This document shows, one piece after another, positions 1,372 to 31,088 of a stretch of 46,574 nucleotides of DNA. The notes under the pieces are model-generated. The model was given only the letters and a program-made list of their open reading frames with translations. It did not search any database and was not told the DNA's origin. Position 1 is the first letter of the stretch, and each line of letters begins with the position of its first letter. The DNA is from Pseudomonadota bacterium (GTDB lineage: Bacteria; Pseudomonadota; Gammaproteobacteria; Burkholderiales; SG8-39): contig JAQBXT010000011.1 of the NCBI GenBank assembly GCA_027624175.1, forward strand, positions 1 to 46,574, given 5' to 3'. A program made the translations under genes and the position numbers.

Positions 1372-2217
1372 ATGCGTTTCTCAGGTTCCGCCGACTACGT
1401 CTCCACCGAGGACCTCACGCTCGCGGTCAACGCGGCGATCACGCTGCAGCGCCCGCTGCTGGTGAAAGGCGAGCCCGGCACCGGCAAGACCATGCTTGCC
1501 GTGCAGGTGGCAAAAGCGCTCGGCGTGCCGCTGCTCGAGTGGCACATCAAGTCCACCACCAAGGCGCAGCAGGGGCTCTACGAGTACGACGCGGTGAGTC
1601 GGCTGCGCGACTCGCAGCTGGGCGACCAGCGCGTGCACGACATCCACAACTACATCGTCAAGGGCATGCTGTGGCAGGCCTTCTCGCGGGACGAGCCCTG
1701 CGTGCTGCTGATCGACGAGGTGGACAAGGCGGACATCGAGTTCCCCAACGACCTGCTGCGCGAGCTCGACCGCATGGAGTTCTACGTCTACGAGACGCGC
1801 GAGCTGGTGCAGGCCAAGCAGCGGCCGATCGTGTTCATCACCTCCAACAACGAGAAGGAGCTGCCCGACGCCTTCCTGCGCCGGTGCTTTTTCCACTACA
1901 TCCGCTTCCCCGACAAGGAGACGATGGAAAAAATCGTCGCCGTGCACTTCCCCAAGCTGAAGAAGGCGCTGCTGCGCGAGGCGATGGAGGTGTTCTTCGA
2001 GGTGCGCGAAGTGCCGGGCCTGAAGAAAAAACCCTCTACGTCGGAACTGCTGGACTGGCTCAAGCTGCTGTTGGCGGAGGACATCTCGCCGGAGGCGCTG
2101 CGCTCCAATGACCGCAAGACCATTATCCCGCCGCTGCACGGGGCGCTGCTCAAGAACGAACAGGACGTGCACCTGTTCGAGCGGCTGGTGTTCATGACGC
2201 GCGCCAAGGGAGGTTGA
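1372..2217 (+). CDS. MoxR-family AAA+ ATPase
   Basis: Chaperone-like ATPase of the MoxR/NorQ/CbbQ clade, which works with VWA-domain partners to activate or load cofactors into enzymes. Walker A is GEPGTGKT at residues 33-40. Walker B is LLIDEVD at about 112-118. The sensor region ITSNNEKELPDAFLRRC is typical of the clade. Length 281 residues is normal. The VWA gene follows after 4 nt, the classic MoxR-VWA pairing. The client protein is not evident; the neighbouring cytochromes are candidates, by position only. Confidence 0.93.
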   Translation: MRFSGSADYVSTEDLTLAVNAAITLQRPLLVKGEPGTGKTMLAVQVAKALGVPLLEWHIKSTTKAQQGLYEYDAVSRLRDSQLGDQRVHDIHNYIVKGMLWQAFSRDEPCVLLIDEVDKADIEFPNDLLRELDRMEFYVYETRELVQAKQRPIVFITSNNEKELPDAFLRRCFFHYIRFPDKETMEKIVAVHFPKLKKALLREAMEVFFEVREVPGLKKKPSTSELLDWLKLLLAEDISPEALRSNDRKTIIPPLHGALLKNEQDVHLFERLVFMTRAKGG

Positions 2218-2221
2218 CCCC

Positions 2222-3394
<1,173 letters not shown>

Positions 3395-3395
3395 C

Positions 3396-3602
3396 ATGGG
3401 CACGCGCCTCAGCCAGCTGGTATTGAACCTGCGGCGCAACCTGCCGCCCGATCCCTCGCGCAGTTCGCGCCTGGAGCGCATGCTGCGGCGCTTCGCACGC
3501 CTCGCCGGGTGGCTGCGCTGCGACCTCAACCTCCTCGCCGTCCTCTACGGCACCGACAAGTACGGCGAACACGACTACACGCCGGTGTACCAGGAGCTGA
3601 TT
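3396..3602 (+). pseudogene. N-terminal fragment of a probable SAM-dependent methyltransferase
   Basis: About 68 codons follow the VWA stop by 1 nt. The piece LAVLYGTDKYGEHDYTPVY resembles the entry motif (YGTDK, then H-Y-T-x-x-Y) of class I methyltransferases of the small-molecule O-methyltransferase type. The expected next element, leading to the SAM-binding glycine loop, is absent. From about 3597-3605 the DNA instead matches, on the other strand, the GGDEF domain of the next gene. The plus frame stays open to 4403, but that part is only antisense of the GGDEF gene. Either a deletion or inversion removed both 3' ends, or the contig is wrongly joined here. The family call is tentative. Confidence 0.5.
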
Positions 3603-5213
3603 CACGAACGGGCGCTGCAGCAAGTTCTGGATGCGCTGTGCCACCAGCGCCGCCTCCTGCGCGTTCTTCAGGCCGTCCCACAGCAGCACGAACTCGTCGC
3701 CGCCAAGGCGCGCCAGCGTGTCCTCGCGTCGCAGGGTGCTTTGCAGGCGTTCGGCCACCGCGCGCAGCAGCGCATCGCCCGCCCGGTGGCCGAGCGAATC
3801 GTTCACCAGTTTGAAGTGGTCAAGGTCGAACAGCAGCACCGCCAGCATGCCCCGGCTGCGCGCCGCGGCGAGGATCGACTGCCCGGCACGGTCGGCGAGC
3901 AGCGCGCGGTTGGGCAATCCGGTCAGCGCGTCGCGAGTGGCGAGGTACTGGATGCGTTCCTCGGCCTGCTTGCGCGCGCTGACGTCGGCGCCGGTGCCGC
4001 GGTAGCCGACCAGGATCCCGCGCGCGTCGCGCACCGGCATGCCGCTCACCTGCTGCCAGATCACCTTGCCGGACTTGGTGATCGAGCGATGCAGCAGATC
4101 GCGGAACGGCTGCCCCTCGCGCGCATGGCGCTCGAACCATTCGTTCATCGCGCGCCCCTCGCCCAGGGGCATGAACTCGCGCGGCGTGCGTCCCAGCAGG
4201 TCGGCGCGCAGGTGGCCCAGCACCGACTCCACGCGCGCCGACAGGTACGTGTAGCGCCACTGCGCGTCGGTTTCCCAGACATACTCGCCCGAAGCCTCGA
4301 CCACATCGCGGTAGCGTGCCTCGACGTCGCGCAGCGCCAGCTCGGCGCGCTTGCGTGCGGTGATATCGAGGTTGATGCCGGTCATGCGCAGCGCGCGCCC
4401 TGATGCGTCGCGCTCAGTCACCTTGCCGCGCGACAGCAGCCACTTCCAGTCGCGGTCCACGCTGCGGTAGCGGTGCTCCTCGACGTAATCGGTGCGCTCG
4501 CCTTTCACGGCTTCCATCGACACCCTGACCAGGCGCGGCAGGTCATCGGCGTGCACGCGCTGCGTCAATTCCTTGACCGTGGTCACTGTGGGCGCGCGCG
4601 GCAGGCCGAGGAACTCCGCCCAGCCCTCGCTGAGGTACACGTTGCCGCTTTGCAGGTCGGTGTCCCACAGAGCCGTGCCGGAGCCGTCCAGCGCCAACTC
4701 CAGCCGCTCCTTGGCGGAAGCCAGCTCGCGCTCGCCGCGCCGCCGCTCGGTGACGTCGCGCCCCACGCCGCGGTAGCCGAGGAAATTCCCTGCGGCGTCG
4801 TGGCGCGGCTGCCCCGACACCAGATGCGCGTGGCGCAGCCCCCCGGCGTCGGCCCGCGCCAGCTCCAGCTCGTGGAACGGCAGGCGCCGGCGCAATTGCT
4901 CCAGGTGCGCAGTGAACGCACGGCCGTCCAGCTCCACGCCGGGCAGCTCCCACAGCCGCTTGCCGAATGCCAGGCCCGGGCCGAAGAAGCCGAGCACGGT
5001 CGGCCCGCCGGTCAGCCAGGTGATGCGATGCTCGGTGTCGCACTCCCAGAACCAGTCTGCCGACAAGGCGGTGAGATTGCGGAACCGCTCCTCGCTGACG
5101 CGCAGCGTGCGCGTGGCGCGCCGGTCGCGCAGCCGCGCCTGCAGCCACGCGGCGGCCACGATGCCGGCCGCTGCGATCAGCAGCAGCGCTTCGGTCAGCA
5201 GCGTCCAGTCCAT
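3603..5213 (-). pseudogene. Membrane PAS-PAS-PAS-GGDEF protein, truncated inside GGDEF
   Basis: A sensor for cyclic-di-GMP signalling, judged by domains. One N-terminal membrane helix (about residues 5-24) is followed by three PAS domains (about 40-157, 165-290, 297-415) and a GGDEF domain from about 421. The active-site motif GGDEF is intact at 504-508, with FDLDHFKLVND before it. The domain stops being recognisable at residue 536 (QRPF); roughly the last third, including the usual SIGI strand, is missing, and any EAL domain is also absent. After the break the frame runs on as antisense of the methyltransferase and VWA genes to 3348. The start at 5213 lies 11 nt after the ATPase stop, so the two genes form one unit. 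Without its full fold, cyclase activity is doubtful. Confidence 0.8.
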
Positions 5214-5224: not shown

Positions 5225-6868
5225 CTAGCTCGTGCCGTCGCGCACCGGCGGCGCCACCTTGAGCACCTCGTCGATGGTGGTGACGCCGGCGGCCAACTTC
5301 ATCGCGCCGCTCACGCGCAGCGGCTTCATGCCTTCCTTCATCGCCTGTTCGCGCACCCTGGCCAGATCGGCGCCGGCGGTGATCATCTGCTTGATCGCCG
5401 GCGTGTGCAGCAGCGTCTCGTAGATCCCCACGCGCCCCATGAAGCCGGTCATGCGGCACTCGAGGCAGCCCACCGGCTTGTACACGCTGGCCGGGCGCGT
5501 CGACTTGAACGGCGCCACCAGCGCGTCCCAGGCGGCCTGGTCCTCGGCGCGGTTCAGTTCCGTGGCCTGCTTGCAGTGCGGGCACAGGGTGCGCAGCAGC
5601 CGCTGGCCCATCACGCCATTGAAGGTGGCGTTGAGCAGGTAAGGCGCAATGCCCAGCTCCAGCAGGCGCGTCACTGCGCTGGGCGCGTCGTTGGTGTGCA
5701 GGGTGGAGAGCACGAGGTGGCCCGTCAGGGCCGACTGCACCGCCATCTCGGCCGTTTCCAGATCGCGGATCTCGCCGATCATGATGATGTCGGGATCCTG
5801 GCGCATCAGCGCGCGCACGCCCTCGGCGAAGCCGAGGTCGATCCCCTGGTGCACCTGCATCTGGTTGAACGAGGGCTCGACCATCTCGATCGGATCCTCG
5901 ATGGTGCACACGTTCACTTCGGGCGTGGCGAGGCTCTTGAGCGTCGAGTAGAGCGTGGTGGTCTTGCCCGACCCGGTGGGCCCGGTCACCAGCACGATGC
6001 CGTTGGGCCGCGCCGTCATCTCGTTCCAGCGCTTGTGGTCGTCCTCCGAAAAGCCCAGCTCGCGGAAATCGCGCACCAGCACCTCGGGATCGAAGATGCG
6101 CATCACCAGCTTCTCGCCGAAGGCGGTGGGCAGGGTCGAGAGGCGCAGCTCGACCTCGTCGCCGTTCGCCATGCGCGTCTTGATGCGCCCGTCCTGCGGC
6201 CGGCGCTTCTCCACCACGTCCATACGGCCGAGGATCTTGATGCGGCTGGTCATCGCCGCCAGCACCGACGCGGGGATCTGGTACACCTGGTGCAGCACGC
6301 CGTCGATGCGAAAGCGCACCAGTCCCACCTCGCGCCGCGGCTCGATGTGGATGTCGCTCGCGCGCTGCTCGAAGGCGTACTGCCAGAGCCAGTCCACGAC
6401 CTTCACCACGTGCGCGTCGTTGGCGTCGAGCGACTTGTTGGCGCTGCCCAGCTCCACCAGCTGCTCGAGGTTCGACAGCCCCGAAGTTCCGCCGGCGTCG
6501 CGGTTGGCGCCCTTGATCGATTTCGCCAGGCTGTAGAACTCGACCTGGCAGCGCTCGATCTCCACCGGGTTGGCGATCACGCGCCGGATCTCGCGCTGCG
6601 CCAGCCACTCGGCCAGCGCCTCCAGTGTCAGCGGCCGGTGCGGCGCGCGCAGATCCTTCCAGACTGCCTCCGCCACCAGCGTGAGCGGATGCTGCGTGCC
6701 GCGCCAGTAGCGGCGCTCCTTCTTCAGGTCTTCCGCCGGCCCGCGCGCGGCCACCCCGTCCTCGACCAGCCAGTCGAGGAGCTCAGTGAGCGTCAGCCGG
6801 CGCTCGGCGGCGGACTTGGCGGCGGCCTGGGCCAAGGGCGCGAACACTATAACGCTAGAATGCGGCAT
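5225..6868 (-). CDS. GspE/PilB-family secretion or pilus assembly ATPase
   Basis: Cytoplasmic hexameric ATPase of the type II secretion/type IV pilus family, 547 residues. An N-terminal domain is followed by the conserved SDIHIEP region, Walker A GPTGSGKTTT (296-305), the Asp box around IEDPIE, Walker B DPDIIMIGEIRD (358-369), the His box HLVLSTLHTND, and a four-Cys zinc site (Cys429, Cys432, Cys468, Cys471). No other secretion or pilus gene is in the window, so it acts alone or serves a machine elsewhere. The ATG at 6868 overlaps the ATG of the divergent transporter. GTG 6847 or TTG 6835 would also be workable starts and would leave room for promoters. Confidence 0.88.
   Translation of the reverse strand: MPHSSVIVFAPLAQAAAKSAAERRLTLTELLDWLVEDGVAARGPAEDLKKERRYWRGTQHPLTLVAEAVWKDLRAPHRPLTLEALAEWLAQREIRRVIANPVEIERCQVEFYSLAKSIKGANRDAGGTSGLSNLEQLVELGSANKSLDANDAHVVKVVDWLWQYAFEQRASDIHIEPRREVGLVRFRIDGVLHQVYQIPASVLAAMTSRIKILGRMDVVEKRRPQDGRIKTRMANGDEVELRLSTLPTAFGEKLVMRIFDPEVLVRDFRELGFSEDDHKRWNEMTARPNGIVLVTGPTGSGKTTTLYSTLKSLATPEVNVCTIEDPIEMVEPSFNQMQVHQGIDLGFAEGVRALMRQDPDIIMIGEIRDLETAEMAVQSALTGHLVLSTLHTNDAPSAVTRLLELGIAPYLLNATFNGVMGQRLLRTLCPHCKQATELNRAEDQAAWDALVAPFKSTRPASVYKPVGCLECRMTGFMGRVGIYETLLHTPAIKQMITAGADLARVREQAMKEGMKPLRVSGAMKLAAGVTTIDEVLKVAPPVRDGTS
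6846..6860. promoter_or_regulatory. Back-to-back -10-like elements between ATPase and transporter
   Basis: On the plus strand TATAAC (6848-6853) and TAGAAT (6855-6860) precede the transporter ATG at 6867. TAGAAT would place the transcript start at or next to the ATG. On the minus strand TATAGT (6851-6846) could serve the ATPase only if its start is the TTG at 6835. No convincing -35 hexamers were seen. Confidence 0.35.
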
Positions 6869-8144
6869 GCAGAAAGCCAGCGCCCTCGCCCCCGAGGTCA
6901 AACTGCGTGAAGTGTGGGCCTGGAGCATGTACGACTTTGCCAACTCGGGCTACACCACGGTGGTGATCACCGCGGTGTTCAGCGCCTACTTCGTCGGCGT
7001 GGTGGCCGGCAAGGCGCCCTGGGCAACCTTCGCGTGGACTGCCGCGCTGTCGGTGTCCTACCTCGCTGTGCTGCTGTCGGCGCCGCTCCTGGGCGCCTGG
7101 GCCGACGCGCACGCGGCGAAAAAGCGCCTGCTGCTCTACGCCACGGTCGGCTGCGTGGGCTTCACCGCGGCGCTCTATTTCACCGGCTCCGGCGCCGTGG
7201 CGCTCGCCGTCGTCCTGGTCGTGCTCTCCAACTTCTTTTTCGCCACCGGCGAGAACCTGATCGCGGCGTTCCTGCCCGAGCTCGCCGACTCGAAGGCCAT
7301 GGGGCGCGTTTCGGGCTGGGGCTGGGCGTTCGGCTACCTGGGCGGCCTCGTCTCCCTCGGCGTATCGCTCCTCTACATCACCTGGGCGCAGGGCGAGGGC
7401 CAGACCGGCGCCCAGTTCGTGCCCGTGACGATGCTGATCACCGCAGTGGTGTTCGCGCTGTGCGCCACGCCGACCTTCCTGTTCCTGCAGGAACGCGCCC
7501 AGCCGCAGACGCGCGAGGGCAAAGCGTGGACGCGGGTCCTCCACACCTTGCACCGCGCCCAGCAGTACCGCGACCTGCGCCGGTTCCTGGTCTGCATCCT
7601 GTTCTACCAGGCGGGCATCATGGCGGTGATCGCGCTCGCCGCCATCTACGCGCAGGAGGAGATGAAGTTCACGCAGACGCAGACCATCGTGCTGATCCTC
7701 GTGGTCAACGTCACGGCCGCGATCGGCGCCTTTGGCTTCGGCTACCTGCAGGACGCGATCGGCCACGTGCGCGCCATGGCGCTGATCCTCGCGGGCTGGA
7801 TCGTCATGATCGCCACCGCCTACGTCGCCGAGGACGCGCCCACCTTCTGGGTCGCCGCCAATCTCGCCGGGCTGTGCATGGGTTCGTCGCAGGCCGCGGG
7901 GCGCGCCATCGTCGGCTACCTTGCGCCGCGCACGCGCGAGGCGGAATTCTTCGGCCTGTGGGGGCTGGCGGTGAAGGCGGCCTCCATTTTCGGCCCGCTC
8001 ACCTACGGCGCGGTGACCTGGATCTTCGAAGGCGACCACCGCCTCGGCATTCTCGCCGTGGGCGCGTATTTCGTGATCGGGCTCGCGCTCCTTCCCGGCA
8101 TCGACGTGGAGCGCGGGCGGCGTGCGGCGCTGCACAGCGCGTGA
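6867..8144 (+). CDS. MFS transporter, UMF1/Atg22-like
   Basis: Inner-membrane protein of 425 residues with about 12 hydrophobic helices. The N-terminus WAWSMYDFANSGYTTV is the hallmark of the UMF1 (unknown major facilitator 1) family, related to yeast Atg22 vacuolar effluxers. The substrate of bacterial members is generally unknown. The start at 6867 was chosen because the family signature begins about 10 residues later; a longer frame reaching back to 6786 is antisense of the ATPase gene. It stands alone between divergent and downstream neighbours, with a 46-bp gap to the peroxiredoxin gene. Confidence 0.88.
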   Translation: MQKASALAPEVKLREVWAWSMYDFANSGYTTVVITAVFSAYFVGVVAGKAPWATFAWTAALSVSYLAVLLSAPLLGAWADAHAAKKRLLLYATVGCVGFTAALYFTGSGAVALAVVLVVLSNFFFATGENLIAAFLPELADSKAMGRVSGWGWAFGYLGGLVSLGVSLLYITWAQGEGQTGAQFVPVTMLITAVVFALCATPTFLFLQERAQPQTREGKAWTRVLHTLHRAQQYRDLRRFLVCILFYQAGIMAVIALAAIYAQEEMKFTQTQTIVLILVVNVTAAIGAFGFGYLQDAIGHVRAMALILAGWIVMIATAYVAEDAPTFWVAANLAGLCMGSSQAAGRAIVGYLAPRTREAEFFGLWGLAVKAASIFGPLTYGAVTWIFEGDHRLGILAVGAYFVIGLALLPGIDVERGRRAALHSA

Positions 8145-16077: not shown

Positions 16078-16613
16078 TCGGGGAAGGACCTGAGCCAGAG
16101 CAATGCGGCGACGCTCTTGGCGTCGGTGATGCGCCCGTCGTGCACCATGTCCTGGGCTTCGGCGAGCGGCAGGGTGAACACTTCAAGGAACTCCCCTTGT
16201 TCGAGCTTCTGCGCGCGCTGCTCGAGCCCGCGTGCCAGCCACAGTTCGATGCCCTCGTCGCTGTAGGCGATGGCGTTGTGGATCAGGCCGAGCCGCCGCC
16301 ACTCGGCGGCAACGTAACCGGTTTCTTCCAGCAATTCGCGCCGGCCGGTCGCCTCGGGCGATTCGCCCGCATCGCGCTTGCCCGCCGGAAGCTCGATGAA
16401 GTCCCGCGCATGCGGATAGCGGAACTGACGCTCCAGCACCACCCGGCCGTCGTCGTGCAGTGCCAGGATCACCACCGCGCCGGGATGACGGATGTACTCG
16501 CGCACCGCCTCGCTGCCGTCGGGCAGGCGCACGCGGTCGCGGCGCACCTTGAGCAGGCGCCCGGTGAACACCTCTTCGCCTTCCAGGAACGTCTCGCTCA
16601 GGTCCTCGCGCAC
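16074..16613 (-). CDS. Nudix hydrolase, ADP-ribose pyrophosphatase type
   Basis: A 179-residue cytoplasmic hydrolase of nucleoside diphosphate-linked compounds. The full Nudix box is present: G-X5-E-X7-RELLEETGY, starting at GKRDAGE. Upstream features ([28 protein letters not shown]) match the ADP-ribose pyrophosphatase (NudF-like) group, so ADP-ribose is the likely substrate. The start is GTG at 16613, overlapping the nuoN stop as TAGTG, which couples it to the complex I operon. ADP-ribose clearance next to NADH dehydrogenase fits NAD turnover, but that link is inference. The stop overlaps the nrdJ stop in CTAG. Confidence 0.9.
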
Positions 16614-18115
16614 TACCGGGCGTAGGAGTACTGGATGGCTTGCAGGCAGACGTACATCAGCGTCTGCGGCAGGATGCCGATGAGCAGAAGCGACAGGCCG
16701 TTGGCGGAAAGCAGCAGCCGCGCGCCTCCCCGTTGGCCCACCGCGCTCACACCTTGCGCCGGGTCGTCAAAATACATCAGCTTGACCACGCGCAGGTAGT
16801 AGAAAGCGCCGATCAGCGAGAACACCACCGCCGTCACCGCGATCGCGATCTGCCCCGCCTGCACAGCGGCCGACAGCACGGCGAACTTGGCGTAGAAGCC
16901 CGCGGTCGGCGGTACCCCCGCCATCGAGAACATCAGCACCAGCATGAGGAATGCCAGCCAGGGATCCCGGCGATTGAGCCCCTTCACGTCCTCCAGCCGC
17001 TCGCATTCGAAGCCGGCGCGCGACAGGAGCAGCAGTACGCCGAATGCTCCCAGCGACATCAACACGTAGACGATGGTGTAGAACATTGCCGCGCCGTAGG
17101 CGTCGACCGCGCTCAGGCGGTTGCCCCCGACCACGCCGGACATCAGGCCCAGCAGCATGAACCCCATGTGCGCGATGGTCGAATAGGCCAGCATGCGCTT
17201 CAGGTTGGTCTGCGCGATGGCGGTGAGGTTGCCGATGGCCATCGACAGCACGGCGAGGATCGCCAGCATCTGCTGCCAGTCGACCGAGAGCGCGGGCAGG
17301 CCGCCGACCAGCAGGCGCATCGCCATGGCGAACGCGGCGAGCTTGGGCGCGGTGCCGATGACCAGCGTCACCGCAGTGCTCGCGCCCTGATAGACGTCCG
17401 GGATCCACATGTGGAACGGCACCAGGCCGAGCTTGAAAGCGAGGCCCGACACCAGGAACACCAGCCCGAATACCAGCAGCATGCGCGAGCTGCTGGATTC
17501 CGCCGCGAGGCTGGTGGCGCGCGCCGCAATGTCGGAGATCACCAGCGTGCCGGTGGCACCGTAGATCATCGATATGCCGTACAGCAGCAGGCCGGAAGCC
17601 AGGGCGCCCAGCACGAAGTACTTCATCGCCGCCTCGGTGGAGGCCGCCGAATCCCGGTTCAGCGCCACCAGGGCGTACAGGCACAGCGACAGCAGCTCCA
17701 ATCCCAGGTACAGGGTAAGGAAACTGTTGGCGCTGATCATCACCATCATGCCGAGCAGCGCGAACAGGAGCAGCGTGAGGAATTCCCCGCGCAGCAGGCC
17801 GCGATCGAGCAGATAGCGGCGCGAGTAGGCCAGCGCCGCGGACACCGCGCCGTAGGCCACCAGCTTGAGCACGCCCGACATGGCGTCGGACAGGAAGGAG
17901 CGGTCGAACAGCAGCAGGCTCCTGCCGCCATTGACCCACAGGATGAACAGCGTGGCCGCAGCGCAGGCCAGCAGAATGAGCTGCGCCAGCGCGAAGCTCG
18001 CGCGGCGGCCTTCGTCCTTCGCGTACAAGTCGAAGATCATCAGCACGCAGGCGCCGAGGAGCAGCAGCACCTCGGGGAGCACCGGGAGATGGTTGACCAA
18101 GACGAGCATGTTCAC
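16613..18115 (-). CDS. nuoN: NADH-quinone oxidoreductase subunit N
   Basis: One of three antiporter-like proton-pumping subunits of complex I, about 500 residues with 13-14 membrane helices. It shows the conserved charged helix residues typical of the family, for example Lys in [20 protein letters not shown] and [20 protein letters not shown] 18115 overlaps the nuoM stop as GTGA; ATG 18109 is an alternative start two codons later. It is the last nuo gene, and the Nudix gene is attached to its stop. Confidence 0.96.
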
Positions 18116-19584
18116 AGCTTGGGCTGCGCCACGTGGCGCAGCAGCTCATCGACCGAGGCGTGCATCACCTCGGTGAACGGCAGCGGGTACACGCCCATGA
18201 AGAGCACCGCCACCGCCAGCAAGCCGAGCACCAGGGTTTCGCGCGGCTCGAGGTCCTTGAGCGCCGCGACCCGCGCGTTGGCTACGGCCCCGAACATCAC
18301 GCGCTTGTACATCCACAGCGTGTAGGCAGCGCCGAACACCAGGGTGGTGGCGGCGGCGAAGGCGAGCCAGAAGTTCTTCTGCATGGCGCCCATGATCACC
18401 ATGAATTCGCCGACGAAGCCGCTGGTCGCCGGCAGGCCGCTATTGGCCATCGCGAACAGCATCATCAGCGCGGCAAACTTCGGCATGGTGTTCACCACGC
18501 CGCCGTAGTCGGTGATCATGCGGCTGTGCATGCGATCGTAGAGCACCCCCACGCACAGGAACAGCGCGGCGGAGACGAAGCCGTGCGAGATCATCTGCAC
18601 CAGCGCCCCCTCCACGCCCCAGGTGTTGAAGACGAAGAAACCCAGGGTGACGAAGCCCATGTGCGAGACCGAGGAATAGGCGATGAGCCTTTTCATGTCG
18701 GTCTGCACCAGCGCCACCAGGCCGATGTACACCACCGCCACCAGCGACAGCGCGATCATCAGCCAGGCCAGGTCGCGCGAGGCATCCGGCAGGATCGGCA
18801 GCGAAAAGCGCACGAAGCCGTAGGCCCCCAGCTTGAGCATGATCGCCGCCAGCACCACCGAGCCGCCGGTCGGCGCCTCGACGTGGGCGTCGGGCAGCCA
18901 GGTGTGCACCGGCCACATCGGCACTTTCACCGCGAAGGCGAACAGGAAGCCGAAGAACAGCCATTTTTGCGCCGCGAGGCTGAGCGGCAGCTTGTGCCAG
19001 TCGAGGACGGCGAAGCTGCCGCCGGACTTGCCATACAGGTACAGGACCGCCACCAGCATCAGCAGCGACCCGAACAGCGTGTAGAGGAAGAACTTGACGG
19101 CGGCATAGACGCGATTCGGCCCGCCCCAGACGCCGATGATGATGAACATCGGGATCAGCGTGGCCTCGAAGAAGACGTAGAACAGCACGCCGTCGAGGGC
19201 CGAGAACACGCCGTTCATCACCCCCGAGAGCATCAGGAACGAGGCGTAGTACTGCCCCACCCGGCTCTCGATCACGCTCCAGCCCGCGATCACCACCAGG
19301 ATGGTGATGAAGGAATTGAGCAGCAGGAACAGCACCGAGATGCCGTCCACCCCAAGGTGGTAATTGACGTTGAAGGCCTCGATCCAGGGCCGCAGCTCGA
19401 CGAACTGCATGCCTGCCACACCGGTCTCGAAGCCGGCGTAAAGCGGGATCGTCACCACGAACCCGAGCACGGCGCCGGCCAGCGCGATGGCGCGCTGCAG
19501 CGGCGCGTTGCGGTCGCCGCCCGCGGCCAGCACCAGCAGCGCGGCGGCGACCGGGACCCAGATGGCGAGCGAAAGCAGCGGCAT
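18112..19584 (-). CDS. nuoM: NADH-quinone oxidoreductase subunit M
   Basis: Antiporter-like membrane subunit of complex I, 490 residues and about 14 helices. The proton-channel features are present: Glu in [20 protein letters not shown], Lys in [20 protein letters not shown] and [19 protein letters not shown]. The ATG at 19584 lies one base after the nuoL stop. The stop overlaps nuoN. Confidence 0.97.
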
Positions 19585-19585
19585 C

Positions 19586-21454
19586 TCAGGTCCCCAGGAA
19601 CCAGTAGGTCATGAGGACCACACCGAGCAGCATCGCCGAGGCGTAGCGGTAAATCATTCCGGACTGCAGCAGCGAAGCGAGCGCCGAGAACCAGCCCACC
19701 ACGCGCGCCGAACCGTTCACCGCCAGCCCGTCGATGAAGGTCTGGTCGCCCGCCTTCCACAGGCCGGTGCCCAGCATCCGCGCCCCGGCACCGAACAGCC
19801 AAGCGTAGAGCTCATCGAAGCCGTACTTGCGCTCCACCACGGCGTACAGCGGCCCCAGGCGCATGGCGATGCGCTTGGGCAGGTCGGTGCGCAGGCGGTA
19901 CAGGACGTAGGCGACGACGATGCCCGCCAGCGCGAGCCAGAACGGCGGCGACACCAGGCCATGGGCGACGAATGTCCAGGGGCTGCCGACGTCGGCGAAG
20001 TCGCCCACCAGCCAGCCGGCAAACACCGAAGGGATCGCCAGCAGCACCAGCGGCACCGTCACCACTTTCGGGGATTCGTGCGGCGGGTGCGCGGCATCGA
20101 AGCGCGGCAGGCCATGGAAGGCCATGAACACCATGCGGAAGGTGTAGGCGGCGGTAACGAACACGCACAGCAGCACGCTCACGTAGGCGAAGCCCGCACC
20201 GGGGATCATGGCGTGCCTGGCGGCCTCGATGATCAGGTCCTTGGAGAAGAAACCGGCGAAGCCCGGGATGCCGACCGAGGAGATCGCGCCGATCAGCACG
20301 GTCCAGTAGGTGATCGGCATGGTGCGGCTCAAGCCGCCCATGCGGCGCATGTCCTGCTCGTGGTGCAGCGCGATGATCACCGAGCCCGCGCCGAGGAACA
20401 GCAGCGCCTTGAAGAATGCGTGCGTCATCAGGTGGAAGATCGCCACCGAGTAGGCCGAGGCGCCCAGCGCCACCGTCATGTAGCCCAGCTGCGACAGGGT
20501 CGAATACGCGATCACGCGCTTGATGTCGTATTGCGTGAGCGCCACCAGTGCCATGGACAGCGCGGTGATGCCGCCGATCACCAGCACCACCGAGCGCGCG
20601 GTCGGCGAGAGCTCGTACAACGGCGCCATGCGCGCCACCATGAAGATGCCGGCCGTCACCATGGTCGCCGCGTGGATCAGCGCGGAGATCGGCGTCGGGC
20701 CTTCCATCGAATCGGGCAGCCAGACGTGCAACGGGAATTGCGCGCTCTTGCCCATGGCGCCGATAAACAGGCAGATGCAGATCACCGACAGCAGCAGCCA
20801 GCCGCTGCCCGGCAGCACCTCGATCGTTCGCCCGGCGAGCGCCGGCGCCTGGCCGAACACCTGCGTGTAGTCGAGGCTGCCGAAATGCGCCAGCACCAGC
20901 CCGATGCCGAGGATGAAGCCGAAGTCGCCCACGCGGTTGACGAGGAAGGCCTTGAGGTTGGCGTGGATCGCGGTGGGCCGCGTGTACCAGAAGCCGATCA
21001 GCAGGTAGGACACCAGCCCCACCGCTTCCCAGCCGAAGAACAGCTGCAGGAAATTGTTCGCCATCACCAGCATCAGCATGGAGAAGGTGAACAGCGAGAT
21101 ATAGGCGAAGAACCTCTGGTAGCCGGGGTCCTCGGCCATGTAGCCGATGGTGTAGACGTGCACCATCAGCGAGACGAAGGTCACCACCACCATCATCAGT
21201 GCGCTGAGACGGTCGATGAGGAAGCCGATCTCCAGCCGCACGCCGCTGCTCGTCAGCCAGGTGTAGACGCTGCCATTGAAGGTGTTGCCCTGCAGCACGT
21301 CGGCCAGAATCCAGCAGGAGGCGACGAACGACGCCAGCACGCCGACGATGGTGACCGTGTGCGCGCCGGCGCGGCCCAGGGCGCGGCCGAACAGGCCCGC
21401 GAGGATCGCGCCCGCCAGGGGAGCCAGCGGCGCCAGAAGATAGACAGCCTTCAT
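19586..21454 (-). CDS. nuoL: NADH-quinone oxidoreductase subunit L
   Basis: The distal antiporter-like subunit of complex I, 622 residues with about 16 helices, including the C-terminal extension that forms the long lateral helix. Recognisable stretches are [38 protein letters not shown] and [19 protein letters not shown]. Its start overlaps the nuoK stop as ATGA. Length and motifs are normal for the family. Confidence 0.97.
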
Positions 21455-21762
21455 CCCTTCAGGCTGTCCAGGTCTTCGACATTGATGGTGGCGAGATTGC
21501 GGAACAGCACCACCAGGATCGCCAGGCCGATCGCCGACTCCGCGGCAGCCACCGTGAGGATGAAGAACACGAACACCTGTCCCGCCAGGTCGCCGATGAA
21601 ATGCGAGAAGGCGATGAAGTTCAGATTCACCGCCAGCAGCATCAGCTCAATCGCCATCAGCAGCACGATGAGGTTGCGACGGTTGAGGAAGATGCCCACC
21701 ACGCTGATGGCGAACAGCAGCGCGCCCAGCACCAGGAAGTGGTTCAGGGTCAGTGCGCCCAC
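21451..21762 (-). CDS. nuoK: NADH-quinone oxidoreductase subunit K
   Basis: Small membrane subunit of complex I, 103 residues with three helices. The two conserved membrane Glu residues are visible in [15 protein letters not shown] and [14 protein letters not shown]. The start is taken as GTG 21762, giving [20 protein letters not shown] is not available close by. The gene begins 2 nt after the nuoJ stop and ends overlapping nuoL. Longer frames over this gene are shadows. Confidence 0.93.
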
Positions 21763-21764
21763 GG

Positions 21765-22361
21765 CTATTCCTTCTCCGAGGGCATGGAGACCATGCGCAC
21801 GCGGTCCTCGCGCCGCACCGCGACCTGGCGCGCCGGATCCTGGCCCTTGGTGTCCTTGCGCCTGCGCAGGGTGAGCGCGATGGCGGCGATGATCGCCACC
21901 AGCAGGATCACCGCGGCGATCTCGAAGGCGTACACGTACTGCGTGTACAGCACGCGCCCGAGCGCCCGGGTGTTGCTGTAGCCGGCGGGCACCGCGTGCG
22001 TGCTGGTGGCGGAGCCGAAGTACCGACCCGCCAGCACCGCCACCATCTCGAAAGCCATCACACCGCCGACCACCACTGCCAGCGGCAGGTTCTGCCAGAA
22101 GCCCTCGCGCAACTGCTCCAGGTTGATGTCGAGCATCATCACCACGAACAGGAACAGCACCATCACGGCGCCCACGTACACCAGCACCAGCGTGATGGCG
22201 AGGAATTCCGCGCGCAGCAGCAACCAGAGGCCCGAGGCGTTGAAGAACGCGAGCACCAGGTACAGCGCGGCGTGCACCGGGTTGCGCGCCGTGATTACGC
22301 GCAGAGCGGCCACCAGCAGCACGGCCGCGAAAGCAAAGAAGATCCAGGTTTCCAGAATTAT
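21765..22361 (-). CDS. nuoJ: NADH-quinone oxidoreductase subunit J, non-standard start
   Basis: Membrane subunit of complex I, about 198 residues with five helices. The conserved [19 protein letters not shown] lies at the end of helix 1 and start of helix 2. No ATG, GTG or TTG occurs between the nuoI stop (22373-22371) and GTG 22322. Starting at 22322 would remove most of helix 1 ([18 protein letters not shown]). Alignment by eye with known NuoJ starts points to ATA at 22361, then ATT and CTG. So either a rare AUA or AUU start is used or one base of an ATG is miscalled. The rest of the protein is normal. Confidence 0.88.
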
Positions 22362-22370
22362 TGTTGTCGT

Positions 22371-22862
22371 TTAGCGGTAGGCAGCGTCGGCTTCCCGGTC
22401 CTTCGCGATTTGCTCCTCGTAGCGATCCCCCACCGCCAGCAGCATCGGCTTGGTGTAGTACAGGTCGCCGCGCTTCTCGCCGTGGTACTCGAGGACGCGC
22501 GTTTCGACGATCGCGTCCACCGGGCAGGCCTCCTCGCAAAAGCCGCAGAAGATGCACTTCACCAGGTCGATGTCGTAGCGTGTGGTGCGGCGCGTGCCGT
22601 CGGCGCGCGCCTCGGATTCGATGTGGATGGCGAGCGCCGGGCACACCGCCTCGCACAGCTTGCAGGCGATGCAGCGCTCTTCGCCATTCGGGTAGCGGCG
22701 CAGCGCGTGCAGGCCGCGGAAGCGCGGGCTCTGCGGCGTTTTCTCCTCCGGGAACTGCACCGTGATCTTGCGCGCGAACAGGTGGCGCCCGGTGAGCATC
22801 AGGCCGCGCAACAGCTCGAGCAGCAGGAAGGAGCGGAAGAAATCGACCACGCGCGCGATCAT
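22371..22862 (-). CDS. nuoI: NADH-quinone oxidoreductase subunit I (ferredoxin-like)
   Basis: Peripheral arm subunit carrying clusters N6a and N6b. The 163-residue protein has two CxxCxxCxxxCP motifs, [12 protein letters not shown] and [12 protein letters not shown], after an amphipathic N-terminal segment that lies on the membrane. The start at 22862 overlaps the nuoH stop as ATGA; residues ahead of it in a longer frame are antisense noise. It ends in TAA, 9 nt before the proposed nuoJ start. Confidence 0.97.
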
Positions 22863-23896
22863 TTCCACAGGCTCCAGGGCGTTTGCATCCACAGCCCGAT
22901 CACCGCGATCCACACCAGGGTGAGCGGGATGAACACCTTCCAGCCCAGGCGCATGATCTGATCGTAGCGGTAGCGCGGGAACGTGGCGCGGATCCACACG
23001 AACATCGACACCAGCACGAACACCTTGGCCAGCAGCCAGAAGAACGGCGGCACCGCGTCGGCGAGCGCACTGGAGATCGGCGGCAGCCAGCCGCCGAAGA
23101 ACATCACCGCGGTGAGCGTGGCGATGAGGATCATGTTCATGTACTCGGCGATGAAGAACAGCGCGTAGGTCATGCCCGAGTATTCGACCATGTGGCCGGC
23201 GACGATCTCCGATTCGCCCTCGACCACGTCGAAGGGCGCGCGGTTGGTCTCGGCGATGCCGGAAATGAAGTACACCAACAGCATGGGCGCGAGCGGCAGC
23301 CAGTTCCAGGAGAGGAAATTGAGGCCCTTGGCGGCGAACATGCCCCGGTCCTGCTGCTGCACGATGTCGGAGAGATTCAGGCTCCCCGACACCATCAGCA
23401 CCACCACCAACGCAAAGCCCATCGCCAGCTCATAGGACACCATCTGCGCCGCGGAGCGCATGGCGCCCAGGAACGCGTACTTCGAATTGGACGCCCAGCC
23501 GGCGATGATCACGCCGTACACGCCCATCGAGGTGAGCGCGATCACGTACAGCAGCCCCGCGTTGATGTCCGCAAGCACCACCTCCGGCGCGAACGGGATC
23601 ACCGCCCAGGCGGCGAGCGCCGGCATCACCATCAGGACCGGCGCCAGGATGAACAGGCCCTTGCTGGCGTTCGCCGGGACGATGATTTCCTTGAACAGCA
23701 GCTTGATGCCGTCGGCAATCGGCTGCAGCAGCCCGAGCGGGCCGACCCGGTTGGGGCCGATGCGGATCTGCATCCAGCCGATGAGTTTTCGCTCCCACAG
23801 CGTGAGATAGGCGACCGACAGCATCAACGGCACGACGATGGCGACGATGTAGACCAGGTTCCAGGCGGTGTCGACGAGAGCGGCCTGCCAGCTCAT
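22859..23896 (-). CDS. nuoH: NADH-quinone oxidoreductase subunit H
   Basis: Membrane subunit that forms much of the quinone-binding chamber and joins the arms of complex I. It has 345 residues and eight helices. Family signatures are [19 protein letters not shown] near the N-terminus and the acidic loop [19 protein letters not shown]. The ATG directly abuts the nuoG stop with no gap, and the stop overlaps nuoI. Confidence 0.97.
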
Positions 23897-26065
23897 CTAG
23901 GCCACTTTCTCCACCACAATCTTCTCCACGCTGAGGCCGCCGAACATCGCGCCCAGGCCGGCGGTCGAGGCATGCGCCGCCGCGACGCGCACGCAATCCG
24001 CGGGTAGCCGGTCGTCGAGCGCGGCGATGAGTTTTGCACTGCCCTCGCCCTGCCGCACCAGCACCGGCTGACCGGCGGCGACGCCGAGCTTTTGCAGCAG
24101 GGCGCCATTCATCCAGGCCCGGGGGGCGCGCGCGTCGCGCGTCTGCTGCAGCGGAGGCGAGCGGCGCACCAGGGGATCGGCGAAATAGATCGGCACCTCC
24201 GCGATGCGCTGCAGCCCGGACACGCTCCAGGCGGGCGTGGCCACTGCTTCGATACCGTTCGACAACAGCCCAGCGACGTCCCGGCCGCCCAGGCAGGCCT
24301 GCCGCACTTCCTCGAGGGTATCGAATTCGAATCCCGGCCTGCCGAGCAGCGTGCCGAGCACACGCAGCACTTTCCAGGCCGGGCGCGACTCGCCCAGCGG
24401 CTGCACGGCGGCGTGGAAACTTTGCAGGCGGCCTTCGGTGCTGACGAAGCTGCCCGCGGTCTCGGTGAACGGTGCGACCGGCAGCAGAACGTCACCCAGG
24501 CCCGATTTCCAGGCCGTCAGGTTGACCACGAACTTTGCATTGCGCAGCAGCTGCGGGTCGGCGCAATCGAGCTCCGGTTCCACGTTGAGGAGCAGCACCG
24601 CCTCCTTTTGCAGGGCTGCGGGCAGGCCACCGCCGGTCGGCAGGCCGGCGACATAGCCACCCACGGAATTGGCGGCCTCGCCGAGGAAACCCAGCTTGAC
24701 GCCCAGGGCTTGCGCCGCGGCGTGGATCTGCGCCGCCTGCGGGTGCTGCTGCGCGAAATTACCGATCAGCACCGCCGCGTTCTTCGCGCCGGCGAGTTTC
24801 CCCTTGAACGCAGCAATCGCCTGCAGGATCGCCGCAGGCGCGACGATGGTTTTGCTCGCAACCGGCATCAGCCAGTCGTCGTCCACCGAATGCAGCACGT
24901 GGATCTGCGCGCCGCGCTTGGTGGCCTGGCGCAGGCGCTGCGCGATCAGCGGGTGGTCCTTGCGCAGGAACGAGCCGATCACCAGCACGCAGTCGAGGCT
25001 GCCCAACTCCGCGATCGGCATGCCGAGCCACGGAATGCCGGCGCGCTTGCCGTCGGCGGAAAAGTCGCTGTGGCGCAGCCGGAACTCGGCGCGGCCCAGC
25101 TTGCCGGCGAGAAACAGCTCCTCCAGCGTGGCGTGCGGCGAGGCGAGGACACCGGCATCGCGCAACCCGGCTGCGGCGCGCGCCAGCGCCACTTCCCAGT
25201 CCACCTCCTCCAGCCGGCCGTTGTTCCTGACCATCGGCCGCGTCAGTCGGTCCGGCGCGTTCAAGCCCTCGTACGAGAAGCGCTCCTTGTCTGAAAGCCA
25301 GCATTCATTGACCGCTTCGTTTTCCAGCGGCAGAACGCGCATCACCCTGCCCTGCTTGACCTGCACCACGAGGTTCGAGCCCAGCCCGTCGTGCGGCGAC
25401 ACCGATTTGCGCCGTGCCAGCTCCCAGGTGCGCGCGCTGTAGCGGAAGGGCTTCGAGGTCAGCGCCCCGACCGGGCACAGGTCGATCATGTTGCCGGAGA
25501 GCTCCGAATCCACGGACTTGCCGACAAAGGCGACGATTTCGGCGTGCTCGCCGCGGCCGATCATGCCCAGTTCCATCACCCCCGCCACTTCCTGGCCGAA
25601 GCGCACGCAGCGCGTGCACTGGATGCAGCGGCTCATCTCCTCCGCCGCCACCAGCGGGCCGATGTCCTTGTGCAGCACCACGCGCTTTGGTTCCTGATAG
25701 CGCGATGCGGAGCCGCCGTAGCCCACCGCCAGGTCCTGCAACTGGCACTCGCCGCCCTGGTCGCAGATCGGGCAGTCGAGCGGATGGTTGATGAGCAGGA
25801 ACTCCATCACGCCGTTTTGCGCGTTCTTCGCCACCGGCGAATGCGTTCTCACCTTCATGCCCTCGGCGACCGGCGTGGCGCAGGCCGGCAGGGGCTTGGG
25901 CGCCTTCTCCACCTCCACCAGGCACATGCGGCAATTGGCCGCGATGGAGAGCTTCTTGTGGTAGCAAAAGTGCGGCACGTAGATGCCGAGTTTGCCGGCG
26001 GCATCCATTACGGTGGCGCCGTGCTGGACTTCCACTTGCCTGCCGTCAATTTCCAGCTTGATCAT
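23897..26065 (-). CDS. nuoG: NADH-quinone oxidoreductase subunit G
   Basis: Large peripheral subunit of complex I, 722 residues. The N-terminal ferredoxin fold binds a 2Fe-2S cluster (Cys in VPHFCYHKKLSIAANCRMC and PACATP), and the next region binds 4Fe-4S clusters (HPLDCPICDQGGECQLQD, then CIQCTRCVRF and DLCPVGAL). A molybdopterin-oxidoreductase-like domain without cofactor follows. The four-Cys site of the extra cluster N7 found in E. coli-type NuoG is absent: at that place the chain reads SVSPHDGLGSNLVV. This matches the mitochondrial-like form. It lies 0 nt before nuoH and directly after nuoF. Confidence 0.96.
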   Translation of the reverse strand: MIKLEIDGRQVEVQHGATVMDAAGKLGIYVPHFCYHKKLSIAANCRMCLVEVEKAPKPLPACATPVAEGMKVRTHSPVAKNAQNGVMEFLLINHPLDCPICDQGGECQLQDLAVGYGGSASRYQEPKRVVLHKDIGPLVAAEEMSRCIQCTRCVRFGQEVAGVMELGMIGRGEHAEIVAFVGKSVDSELSGNMIDLCPVGALTSKPFRYSARTWELARRKSVSPHDGLGSNLVVQVKQGRVMRVLPLENEAVNECWLSDKERFSYEGLNAPDRLTRPMVRNNGRLEEVDWEVALARAAAGLRDAGVLASPHATLEELFLAGKLGRAEFRLRHSDFSADGKRAGIPWLGMPIAELGSLDCVLVIGSFLRKDHPLIAQRLRQATKRGAQIHVLHSVDDDWLMPVASKTIVAPAAILQAIAAFKGKLAGAKNAAVLIGNFAQQHPQAAQIHAAAQALGVKLGFLGEAANSVGGYVAGLPTGGGLPAALQKEAVLLLNVEPELDCADPQLLRNAKFVVNLTAWKSGLGDVLLPVAPFTETAGSFVSTEGRLQSFHAAVQPLGESRPAWKVLRVLGTLLGRPGFEFDTLEEVRQACLGGRDVAGLLSNGIEAVATPAWSVSGLQRIAEVPIYFADPLVRRSPPLQQTRDARAPRAWMNGALLQKLGVAAGQPVLVRQGEGSAKLIAALDDRLPADCVRVAAAHASTAGLGAMFGGLSVEKIVVEKVA

Positions 26066-27412
26066 TTACGCGGCTTCCTTCACGGCGCGCATCGCGTGCG
26101 CGCCGGACCTGCCCCACTTCGGCTCAGTGTCCGGGCCCTGCACCAGGCAGCGCCGGTGCTCGATGTGATGCTCGAACTCATGGCGGAAATGCTGCAGGAA
26201 GCTCTTCACCGGCAGTGCCGCCGCGTCGCCCAGCGCGCAGATGGTGCGCCCGGCGATGTTGTCGGCCACGTTGTCGAGCAGCGCCAGGTCTTCGGTGCGG
26301 CCCTGGCCGTTCTCGATGCGGTTCACCACCCGGTACAGCCACCCGGTACCCTCGCGGCAGGGCGTGCACTGGCCGCAGGATTCCTCGAAATAAAAGTAGG
26401 ACAGCCGCTCCAGCGCGCGCACCATGCAGGTGGTCTCGTCCATCACGATCACCGCGCCGGAGCCGAGCATCGAGCCTGCCTTGGCAATCGCGTCGTAATC
26501 CATGTCCGTCGTCATCATGATGTCGGCCGGCAGCACCGGCATGCTGGACCCGCCCGGGATCACCGCCTTGAGCTTCCTGCCGCCGCGCATTCCTCCGGCC
26601 ATCTCGAGCAGCTTTGCGAAGGGCGTGCCCAGCTTCACTTCATAGTTGCCGGGCCTGGCCACGTGCCCGGTAACAGAAAATATCTTCGTACCGCCGTTGT
26701 TCGGCTTGCCCATGGCGAGGAAGGCATCGGCGCCGTGGCGCATGATCCAGGGCACCGCGGCGAGGGTCTCGGTGTTGTTGATGGTGGTGGGCTTGCCGTA
26801 CAGCCCGTAGCTCGCCGGGAACGGCGGCTTGAAGCGCGGCTGGCCCTTCTTGCCCTCCATCGACTCGAGCAGCGCCGTTTCCTCGCCGCAGATGTAGGCA
26901 CCGTAGCCGGCGTGCGCATACAACTCGAAGCTGAAACCGGAGCCGAGGATGTTCCGGCCGAGGTAGCCCGCGGCGTATGCTTCCTGCAGCGCTTGCTCGA
27001 ACTGCTCGTACTCCGCCCAGATCTCGCCGTGGATGTAGTTGTAGCCGACGCCCGCGCCCATGGCATAGCCGGCGATGATCATGCCTTCAATCACCGCGTG
27101 CGGGTTGTAGCGCAGGAGGTCGCGGTCCTTGCAGGTGCCCGGCTCGCCCTCGTCGGAATTGCACACCAGGTACTTGGCGCCGGCGTACTGCCGCGGCATG
27201 AAAGACCACTTGAGGCCGGCGGGAAACCCGGCGCCGCCGCGCCCGCGCAGCGCTGATCTCTTCACTTCCGCGATCACCGCGTCCGGGGTGATGTGCGCGT
27301 CGACGATGCGCCGCAGCGCCTGGTAGCCGTCGCGCGCCTCGTAGTCCTTGAGGCGCCAGTTGCGGCCGTCCAGGCCGGCCATCAGGATCGCATCGGGTCC
27401 GTAGTCGAGCAT
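26066..27412 (-). CDS. nuoF: NADH-quinone oxidoreductase subunit F
   Basis: NADH dehydrogenase subunit of complex I: binds NADH, FMN and cluster N3. The 448-residue protein has the FMN/NADH glycine-rich segment [17 protein letters not shown], the region [13 protein letters not shown], and the N3 motif [15 protein letters not shown]. The C-terminal Cys (RTICALGD) completes N3. The start at 27412 follows the nuoE stop by one base. Normal length. Confidence 0.97.
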
Positions 27413-27413
27413 C

Positions 27414-27911
27414 TCAGCCCTTCTTGGACAGCTCGGCGAGCAGCGCGTCGAGCTTGTCGTGGGTCATGAAGTCGCACATGCGCTTGTTGTTCACCAGCAC
27501 CACGGGAGCCATGGCGCACGCGCCCATGCATTCACCTTCCTTCAGCGTGAACCAGCCGTCGGGCGTGGTCTCGCCAAAGCCGATGCCCAGTTTCCTTTTC
27601 AGGTGGTCGGCGGCCTCGAGCGAACCCTGCAGCCCGCAGGGCAGGCAGGTGCAGATGGTGAGCTTGTGCGTGCCGCCGGGCGCGAGGTTGTACATGCCGT
27701 AGAAGCTCGCCACCTCGTACACCGCGACCGGCGGCATGCCGAGGACCTGCGCCACGTAATCCATGGTCCCGGTCGACAGCCAGCCCTTCTCGTCCTGCGC
27801 CACGATGAGCGCGCTCATCACCGCCGATTGCTTCTGCTCGGCGGGGTACTTGGCGACCTCGCGGTCGATCCTGGCAAGTGAATCTGGCGAAAGCATCGCG
27901 CGATCGTTCAT
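27414..27911 (-). CDS. nuoE: NADH-quinone oxidoreductase subunit E
   Basis: Thioredoxin-like 2Fe-2S subunit (cluster N1a) of complex I, 165 residues. Cluster ligands are Cys87 and Cys92 in ICTCLPC and Cys128 and Cys132 in [11 protein letters not shown], the expected C-x4-C and C-x3-C. The start at 27911 overlaps the nuoD stop as ATGA; the very long frame reaching back to 28547 is a shadow of nuoD. Confidence 0.96.
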
Positions 27912-29161
27912 CTGTCTATATCCCCGAACACGATGTCCAGCGTGCCGATGATGGCGACGGCGTCGGCCAGCATGTGGCCCTTCGACAGCTCGCTCATCGC
28001 CGACAGGTGCACGAAAGCCGGCGAACGCAGCTTCATGCGGTAGGGCTTGTTGGCGCCGTCGGAAATGAGGTACACGCCGAACTCGCCTTTCGGATGCTCG
28101 ATCGCGGCGTAGGCCTCCCCTTCGGGCACATGCATGCCTTCGGTGAACAGCTTGAAGTGGTGGATCAGCTGCTCCATGTCGCTTTTCATCGCTGCGCGCG
28201 ACGGCGGTGCCACCTTGTGGTTGTCGGTGATCACCGCACCCGGATTGGCGCGCAACCAGTTCACGCACTGCCTGACGATGCGGTTCGACTGGCGCATCTC
28301 CTCGATGCGCACCAGGTAGCGATCGTAGGTGTCGCCGTTCACGCCCACCGGAACGTCGAACTCCATGCGGTCGTAGACTTCGTAGGGCTGCTTCCTGCGC
28401 AGGTCCCATTCGACGCCCGAGCCCCGCAGCATCACCCCGGAGAAGCCCAGCGCCATGGCGCGCTCGGGCGAGACCACGCCGATACCCACCGTGCGCTGCT
28501 TCCAGATGCGGTTCTCGGTGAGCAGCGTCTCGTAGTCGTCGACGCATTTCGGGAAGCGCGCGCTGAAATCCTCGATGAAGTCGAGCAGCGTGCCCTGGCG
28601 GTTGGCGTTCATCTCGGCAAGCGCGCCGGCGCTGCGCGTGTGCTGCGCCTCATAGTGGGGCATGGAATCCGGCAGGTCGCGGTACACGCCGCCCGGACGG
28701 TAGTACGCCGCGTGCATGCGCGCCCCGGACACCGCCTCGTAGCAGTCGAACAGGTCCTCGCGCTCGCGGAAACAGTACAGGAACACCGTCATCGCCCCGA
28801 GATCGAGGGCCTGGGTGCCGAGGAACAGCAGGTGGTTGAGGATGCGCGTGATCTCGTCGAACATGACGCGGATGTATTGCGCGCGCAGCGGCACCTCGAT
28901 GCCCAGCAGCTTCTCGATCGCCAGCACGTAGGCGTGCTCGTTGCACATCATGGATACGTAGTCCAGCCGGTCCAGGTAGGGCAGCGTTTGCAGGTAGGTA
29001 CGGGTTTCCGCCAGCTTCTCCGTGGCCCGGTGCAGCAGGCCGATGTGCGGGTCGGCGCGCTGGATCACCTCGCCGTCGAGCTCGAGCACCAGCCGCAGCA
29101 CGCCGTGCGCCGCCGGGTGCTGCGGCCCGAAATTGAGGGTGTAGTTGCGGATCTCCGGCAT
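27908..29161 (-). CDS. nuoD: NADH-quinone oxidoreductase subunit D
   Basis: 49-kDa-type subunit that forms the quinone site with NuoB, related to the large subunit of NiFe hydrogenases. The 417-residue chain begins [20 protein letters not shown], the usual start, with the quinone-site His in GPQHPAAHG. Later stretches such as [18 protein letters not shown] and DIVFGDIDR are family-specific. It starts 4 nt after the nuoC stop. It is not fused to nuoC, unlike in enterobacteria. Confidence 0.97.
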
Positions 29162-29165
29162 CGGT

Positions 29166-29756
29166 TTAACCGCGGCCCTCGCCGTAGTGCTCCGAGCGCA
29201 CGATGCGCGGCGTGACCTCGCGCGGCTCGATACTGACCGGTTGATACACCACGCGCCTCTGCTCAGGGTCGTAGCGCATCTCGACATACCCCGAAATCGG
29301 AAAATCCTTGCGGAACGGGTGACCGATGAAGCCATAGTCGGTGAGGATGCGGCGCAGGTCCGGGTGACCGTCGAACACCATGCCGAACAGGTCGAATGCC
29401 TCGCGCTCGTACCAGTTCACGCTCGGCCAGATTTCGACCAGCGACGGCAGCATCGGCATTTCGTCGTCGGTGCAACTGCAGCGCACGCGCAACCGCCAGT
29501 TGTGGGTGATGGACAACAGGTGCACCACCGCGGCGAAGCGTCCGCCCGGCCGAGCGCCCTCGCCGTAGGTCGAATAGTCCACGCCGCACAGGTCCGTCAG
29601 CTGCTCGAAGCGCAAGTCCGCGTCATCGCGCAGTTTCAGGCAGGTCGCCATGTATTCGGCCGCCGGCACCTCGACCGTCAACTCGCCCAGGCGCTCCTGC
29701 GGCGCAAGACCCGCTTGCTGCAACAGGCCCGACAGCTTTTGCAGCTTGAGCGTCAT
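29166..29756 (-). CDS. nuoC: NADH-quinone oxidoreductase subunit C
   Basis: 30-kDa-type subunit of the peripheral arm, 196 residues, with the signature [20 protein letters not shown] and then [19 protein letters not shown]. The start at 29756 overlaps the nuoB stop as ATGA. The longer frame to 30146 is a shadow of nuoB. It has no cofactor and supports NuoD assembly. Confidence 0.96.
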
Positions 29757-30229
29757 CGCGCGATGGTGTTGGTTCTCTTGATCTTGTTCTGCAGCTGCAG
29801 AATGCCGTACAGCAGCGCCTCCGCGGTCGGCGGGCAACCGGGCACGTAGATGTCCACCGGCACGATGCGGTCGGCACCGCGCACCACCGAGTAGGAGTAA
29901 TGGTAATAGCCGCCGCCGTTGGCGCAGGAGCCCATCGAAATCACCCAGCGCGGCTCGGCCATCTGGTCGTAGACCTTGCGCAGCGCCGGCGCCATCTTGT
30001 TGCACAGGGTCCCGGCGATGATCATGACGTCGGATTGCCGCGGGCTGGGGCGGAACACGACGCCGAAGCGATCCAGGTCGTAGCGCGCCGCGCCCACGTG
30101 CATCATCTCGATGGCGCAGCATGCCAACCCGAAGGTCATCGGCCACATCGAGCCGGTGCGCGTCCAGTTGATCAGCTTGTCGGCCGTGGTGGTGACGAAC
30201 CCCTGCTGCAGGACGCCTTCAATGCCCAT
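29753..30229 (-). CDS. nuoB: NADH-quinone oxidoreductase subunit B
   Basis: Carries the terminal cluster N2 that passes electrons to quinone. In the 158-residue protein the N2 ligands are the tandem Cys in [10 protein letters not shown], the Cys in [10 protein letters not shown] and the Cys in [14 protein letters not shown]. The N-terminus [20 protein letters not shown] is typical of betaproteobacterial NuoB. It starts 3 nt after the nuoA stop. Confidence 0.97.
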
Positions 30230-30232
30230 GCA

Positions 30233-30589
30233 TCACTCCCATTCCAGCGCGCCTTTCTTCCACTCGTAGGCGAAGCCGACCACCAGAATGCCGAGGAACA
30301 CCATCATGGCCAGGAATCCCGGCAGGCCGATGTCATTGAGCGCCACCGCCCAGGGAAACAGAAAGGCGATCTCCAGGTCGAACAGGATGAACAGGATCGC
30401 CACCAGATAGTAGCGCACGTCGAACTTCATGCGCGCGTCCTCGAAGGCCTCGAAGCCGCACTCGTAAGGCGACAGCTTCTGCGCATCCGGGCGGCTCGGG
30501 CCGAGCAGCTTGCCGAGCGCCATGGGCACCACACCGACCGCCAGGCCGACGAGGATGAACAGCAGGATGGGATAGTACTCAGCCAGCAT
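30233..30589 (-). CDS. nuoA: NADH-quinone oxidoreductase subunit A
   Basis: First gene of the complex I operon: a small membrane subunit of 118 residues with three helices and the conserved loop [19 protein letters not shown]. The start [15 protein letters not shown] is normal for the family. The ATG lies only 3 nt after the encoded CCA end of tRNA-Leu. Its ribosome binding site, if any, must lie inside the tRNA, and excision of the tRNA would leave an almost leaderless mRNA. There is no room for a promoter between the two genes. Confidence 0.96.
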
Positions 30590-30592
30590 AAT

Positions 30593-30680: not shown

Positions 30681-30694
30681 GTCGCATGGAGCGA

Positions 30695-30700: not shown

Positions 30701-30709
30701 CTCTATAAA

Positions 30710-31084: not shown

Positions 31085-31088
31085 AGTC

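Follow-up and report, generated by a model that had tools for sequence, protein, structure and literature searches.

A probable local deletion that clipped the 3′ ends of two convergent genes in an uncultured betaproteobacterium

Two convergent genes, one for a methyltransferase-like protein on the plus strand and one for a PAS-GGDEF protein on the minus strand, lose their family similarity at the same few bases of the contig studied here. This raises the question of whether a single event in the cell removed both of their 3′ ends, or whether the joint between them was made during assembly. The window, that is, the whole stretch of DNA analysed (46,574 nucleotides, G000:C32:1-46574), comes from an uncultured betaproteobacterium, whose assembly (G000) comprises 2,328,392 bases in 115 contigs and is 88.67% complete and 0.64% contaminated. 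The joint was compared with the same locus in two congeners, G002 and G003, and G018 was used as the outgroup at site 4312. The methyltransferase was sought in 61 genomes (the own genome and 60 relatives), and the joint in 98 genomes of the family (the own genome and 97 others).

First of all, the position of the cut is confirmed. The initial annotation placed it near 3597-3605 in both genes, and DNA similarity to both congeners ends on the left side at window position 3601 and restarts on the right side at 3606, the ends of similarity of both genes thus lying at about 3601-3606. The residues agree as well: methyltransferase similarity, which was said to be lost after about 68 residues, covers residues 1-67 of 268, and for the PAS-GGDEF protein, said to lose similarity after residue 536, the last conserved residue aligned to both congeners is F536 in "LLQRPF". 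Further, neither gene was said to have a stop of its own close by. This holds for the plus frame, whose stop lies about 800 nt on, but not for the minus frame, which stops 258 nt past the joint (the features are collected in Table 1). Past the joint each frame continues as antisense of the opposite gene, as had been proposed. Such run-on frames are to be expected, because in both G002 and G003 the intact GGDEF-EAL gene, read in the equivalent antisense frame, is open across all of the 500 codons examined. That is to say, judged from the sequence, the run-on frames appear to be unremarkable antisense in GC-rich DNA and would not represent a new C-terminus.

Table 1. Features at and around the joint, in window coordinates.
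Feature	Position	Strand	Remarks
VWA_CoxE-like gene, intact left neighbour	2222..3394	+	Pfam PF05762; 84-90% DNA identity over ~1.17 kb in several relatives
Methyltransferase-like frame	ATG 3396 to stop 4403	+	335 aa
Methyltransferase gene, 5′ remnant (~first 67 codons)	3396..3602	+	Methyltransf_24-like region of the congeners missing
Putative deletion joint	3601..3606	.	1568 bp (vs G003) or 2419 bp (vs G002) missing
PAS-GGDEF frame	5213 to stop 3348	-	
PAS-PAS-GGDEF remnant (residues 1-536)	3606..5213	-	GGDEF end and all of EAL missing
PAS-region length difference	4296..4350	-	375-379 bp (125 residues, in frame) fewer than in G002 and G003
PilB/GspE-like ATPase	5225..6943	-	64 residues of the Pfam MshEN domain lost in frame (192 bp, ~6592-6604)

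The same locus in the congeners shows what the joint has brought together. In G003, the methyltransferase gene (L025 3688-4497, plus strand, 269 aa) is convergent with a PAS-GGDEF-EAL gene (L025 4494-7436, minus strand, 980 aa), with an overlap of 4 bp. In G002, the PAS-GGDEF-EAL gene (L024 2922-5864) is intact with 980 aa, and one TylF-like methyltransferase gene (L024 ~2068-2934, minus strand, PF05711) is located between it and the methyltransferase gene. The PilB-like ATPase gene and then a transporter gene come next in order in both congeners, as in the window. To the question of whether the two halves are ever adjacent in relatives, the answer is that G002 and G003 both carry them as neighbours with unchanged orientation. 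Measured against either congener, one contiguous local block is missing in the window, and the suggestion that one deletion removed both 3′ ends is supported by this finding of the same convergent pair with one block missing. An inversion, which had been suggested as well, is not needed and was rejected, since both sides of the joint keep the order and orientation of the congeners. At window position 3395, a cobalamin-independent methionine synthase-like (metE-like) gene (PF01717) is absent, which in G002 lies between the vWA gene and the methyltransferase gene.

Matches to the methyltransferase were found in 10 of the 61 genomes, and they are near full length only in G002 (268 of 268 positions) and G003 (266 of 268). 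In the congener protein, a Pfam Methyltransf_24 match covers residues 89-179 with 24.6 bits, just under the Pfam cut-off of 26.3. The Pfam scan of the window methyltransferase frame gave no match; only residues 1-67 are left, so the Methyltransf_24-like region of this class I methyltransferase type is absent. As part of the single-deletion explanation, the methyltransferase has probably lost its last ~200 residues. The dN/dS ratio on the branch of this remnant is 0.59 (0.29-1.16), an estimate from just 65 codons.

The PAS-GGDEF-EAL orthologues of G002 and G003 share the neighbours of the window gene, and their identity to the window protein is 76% and 73%, respectively, but they are intact at 980 aa, with 125 more residues in the PAS region and with full GGDEF and EAL domains. 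Relative to the 980-aa congener protein, residues ~662-980, which include the end of GGDEF and all of EAL, are missing from the window. The GGDEF motif itself is kept, at residue 504 of the window protein; the GGDEF profile (PF00990) is matched at positions 1-117 of 161, against 1-160 in the G002 protein, and the EAL profile (PF00563), matched at positions 3-236 of 236 in the G002 protein, is absent from the window protein. For the diguanylate cyclase, two outcomes had been suggested, a dead enzyme or a novel end. The former is likely, with the GGDEF domain incomplete and the EAL domain absent, and the truncated cyclase is most likely dead as far as its sequence indicates. The latter is unsupported: the tail has no Pfam match, and the AlphaFold2 model of the fused frame, built from two sequences and reaching a mean pLDDT of only 36.4, is uninformative about it. 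In addition, the PAS-region stretch of 375-379 bp is also absent in G018, and as this outgroup agrees with the window, the length difference at 4312 may be a loss or a gain.

The codons of the PAS-GGDEF remnant are still under purifying selection. The dN/dS ratio on its branch is 0.25 (95% 0.16-0.34) over 535 codons with 0 stops, an estimate that overlaps those for G002 (0.20) and G003 (0.36). Since the remnant is still constrained, either the deletion is recent or the joint is an assembly artefact. A rough model that lets selection end with the truncation puts the time since then at no more than about one fifth of the G000 branch. The dN/dS pattern is the same under a recent deletion and under an assembly artefact, and it cannot separate the two.

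The best explanation, and a probable one on these sequence comparisons, is a recent, local, repeat-free deletion that clipped two convergent genes. A single local deletion on the G000 lineage would have removed the shared 3′ region of the pair and, depending on the ancestral state, perhaps also the TylF-like gene between them. We infer that it took place in the cell and not in the assembler, that the ends were joined over no more than a few homologous bases, and that both gene products would be non-functional. Such a single deletion fits a genome that is losing DNA, G000 being estimated at 2.63 Mb (size divided by completeness) and three congeners at 3.44, 3.30 and 3.47 Mb; it is most likely ordinary gene loss. 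As for the joint itself, no direct word longer than 6 bp (G002) or 5 bp (G003) is shared at a distance of up to 20 bp from the breakpoints, random pairs averaging 5.6, and no 16-mer from 3500-3720 is repeated within the window. A repeat-mediated deletion is unsupported, the shared words being no longer than chance. Because the joint is without a repeat, there is nothing at it to mediate recombination or to mislead the assembler.

The last point also bears on a local assembly artefact, according to which both genes are complete in the cell and ~1.6-2.4 kb was skipped by the assembler or in a chimeric read. This explanation, the main rival of the deletion, is rather unlikely, although several observations agree with it: the reading frames of both remnants are uninterrupted, with normal constraint on the PAS-GGDEF part; the assembly is fragmented and incomplete; and it contains other odd joins, such as a kinase-EAL fusion on contig C52, the sides of which lie on different G002 contigs. 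Moreover, no single match across the joint was found in the 97 other family genomes among the matches listed, of which those left off are weak whereas a joint in common would stand close to the top, G002 and G003 matching its two sides separately; the same joint in related strains, which the initial annotation had named as evidence against misassembly, is therefore lacking among those matches. On the other side, there is no repeat at the joint for the assembler to collapse on, and the remaining losses on the contig are in frame or intergenic. The skipped parts of the methyltransferase were also found on no other contig. In the own genome the methyltransferase query found the remnant only and the TylF-like protein query found no match, each of the two queries matching G002, and the missing-region DNA as query found weak matches only, the best being 64% identical and in the EAL/GGDEF-coding part; at 88.67% completeness, the failure to find the missing parts is no proof of absence.

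It is very improbable that the fused PAS-GGDEF frame with its antisense tail of ~85 residues functions with a new end, or that the PAS part works alone. The frame is indeed open down to its stop and the remnant is under purifying selection, but a recent deletion explains the selection equally well, and in the congeners the equivalent antisense frame is open in any case; the tail, which has no Pfam match, is what results from reading methyltransferase codons and the end of the vWA gene on the opposite strand. Finally, a chimeric contig uniting two remote loci, which the initial annotation suggested and which would also make two genes stop at one point, is very unlikely, since the two congeners with the methyltransferase both have the halves as neighbours, equally oriented and with shared gene order on either side.

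Beyond the joint, the probable deletion can be seen against the length differences along the contig. At all of the seven sites with a difference of at least 100 bp to both congeners (~3601, 4312, 6596, 8160, 11808, 32100 and 40975), it is the window that is shorter; this count was read from the alignment table, and it excludes both 35035-35625, which the G003 loci compared do not cover, and the metE-like gene absent at 3395, inside which the G003 contig starts. At 35035-35625 the window is longer, by 598 bp relative to G002 and by 745 bp relative to G018. None of the seven sites falls within 16115-31799, which contains nuo operon genes and a triosephosphate isomerase gene (P = 0.056); that length changes spare the nuo operon is only suggestive and not significant.

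One of these sites lies in the neighbouring ATPase gene, which is otherwise conserved, with a branch dN/dS of 0.18. The MshEN domain (PF05157) is present in the G002 ATPase and absent from the window ATPase, and the numbers of PF05157 matches per genome are 0 in G000, 4 in G002, 4 in G003 and 0 in G034, which is another small genome. The loss of a c-di-GMP receptor through this deletion is not claimed: as read here, the congener N-terminus does not contain the RLG...LxxxLxxQ pair that PMC5013675 describes, and the stretch where that pair would lie comes before the start of the 64 lost residues. The available portion of PMC5013675 draws no link between PF05157 and this motif. A tentative and unlikely reading is that the lineage is dismantling a c-di-GMP/pilus regulatory module, in which the catalytic half of the PAS-GGDEF-EAL protein and most of the MshEN domain of the ATPase were lost while the ATPase core stayed under selection; it is put forward because G000 has no MshEN match, against four in each of two congeners, and because two further EAL genes are cut. 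If this were true, the death of the neighbour enzyme would have gone along with the release of the ATPase from its N-terminal input domain.

Other altered genes were observed elsewhere in the assembly. On contig C52 (L164), in a gene at 1313-2203 on the minus strand, the end of a histidine kinase continues in frame into the last 30 EAL positions at ~1453-1462; the two sides of this fusion match the G002 contigs C20 and C204, and there is little common sequence where they meet. On contig C85 (L165), a GGDEF-EAL gene at 3823-5058 on the minus strand stops at EAL position 219 of 236, where similarity to the G002 and G003 orthologues ends. On contig C87 (L168), a PilT/PilU-like ATPase gene at ~2440-3663 on the plus strand is apparently in two frames near 3070-3090, through a frameshift or a sequence error. 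The numbers of EAL matches per genome (5 in G000, 10 in G002 and 4 in G003) do not make a contraction of the EAL set clear.

Truncation of c-di-GMP genes as such has already been described. In the portion of the review PMC10333796 that was available, truncations and domain swapping in c-di-GMP turnover genes are presented as ongoing, for example in ycgG and YciR. The probable deletion in the window resembles those cases in that it takes part of a multi-domain GGDEF/EAL protein. In YciR, however, the cut is just C-terminal of GGDEF and leaves the cyclase, whereas the cut in the window is inside GGDEF, and unlike the cases in that portion of the review, the deletion in the window would also hit a convergent methyltransferase gene.

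The identity of both cut genes is thus settled, and the joint needs only a local deletion. Since the joint can be explained in this way, both frames should be annotated as partial, and the fused frame should not be taken for a new cyclase. Should the deletion be real, the contig would illustrate on a small scale how a shrinking betaproteobacterial genome loses genes.
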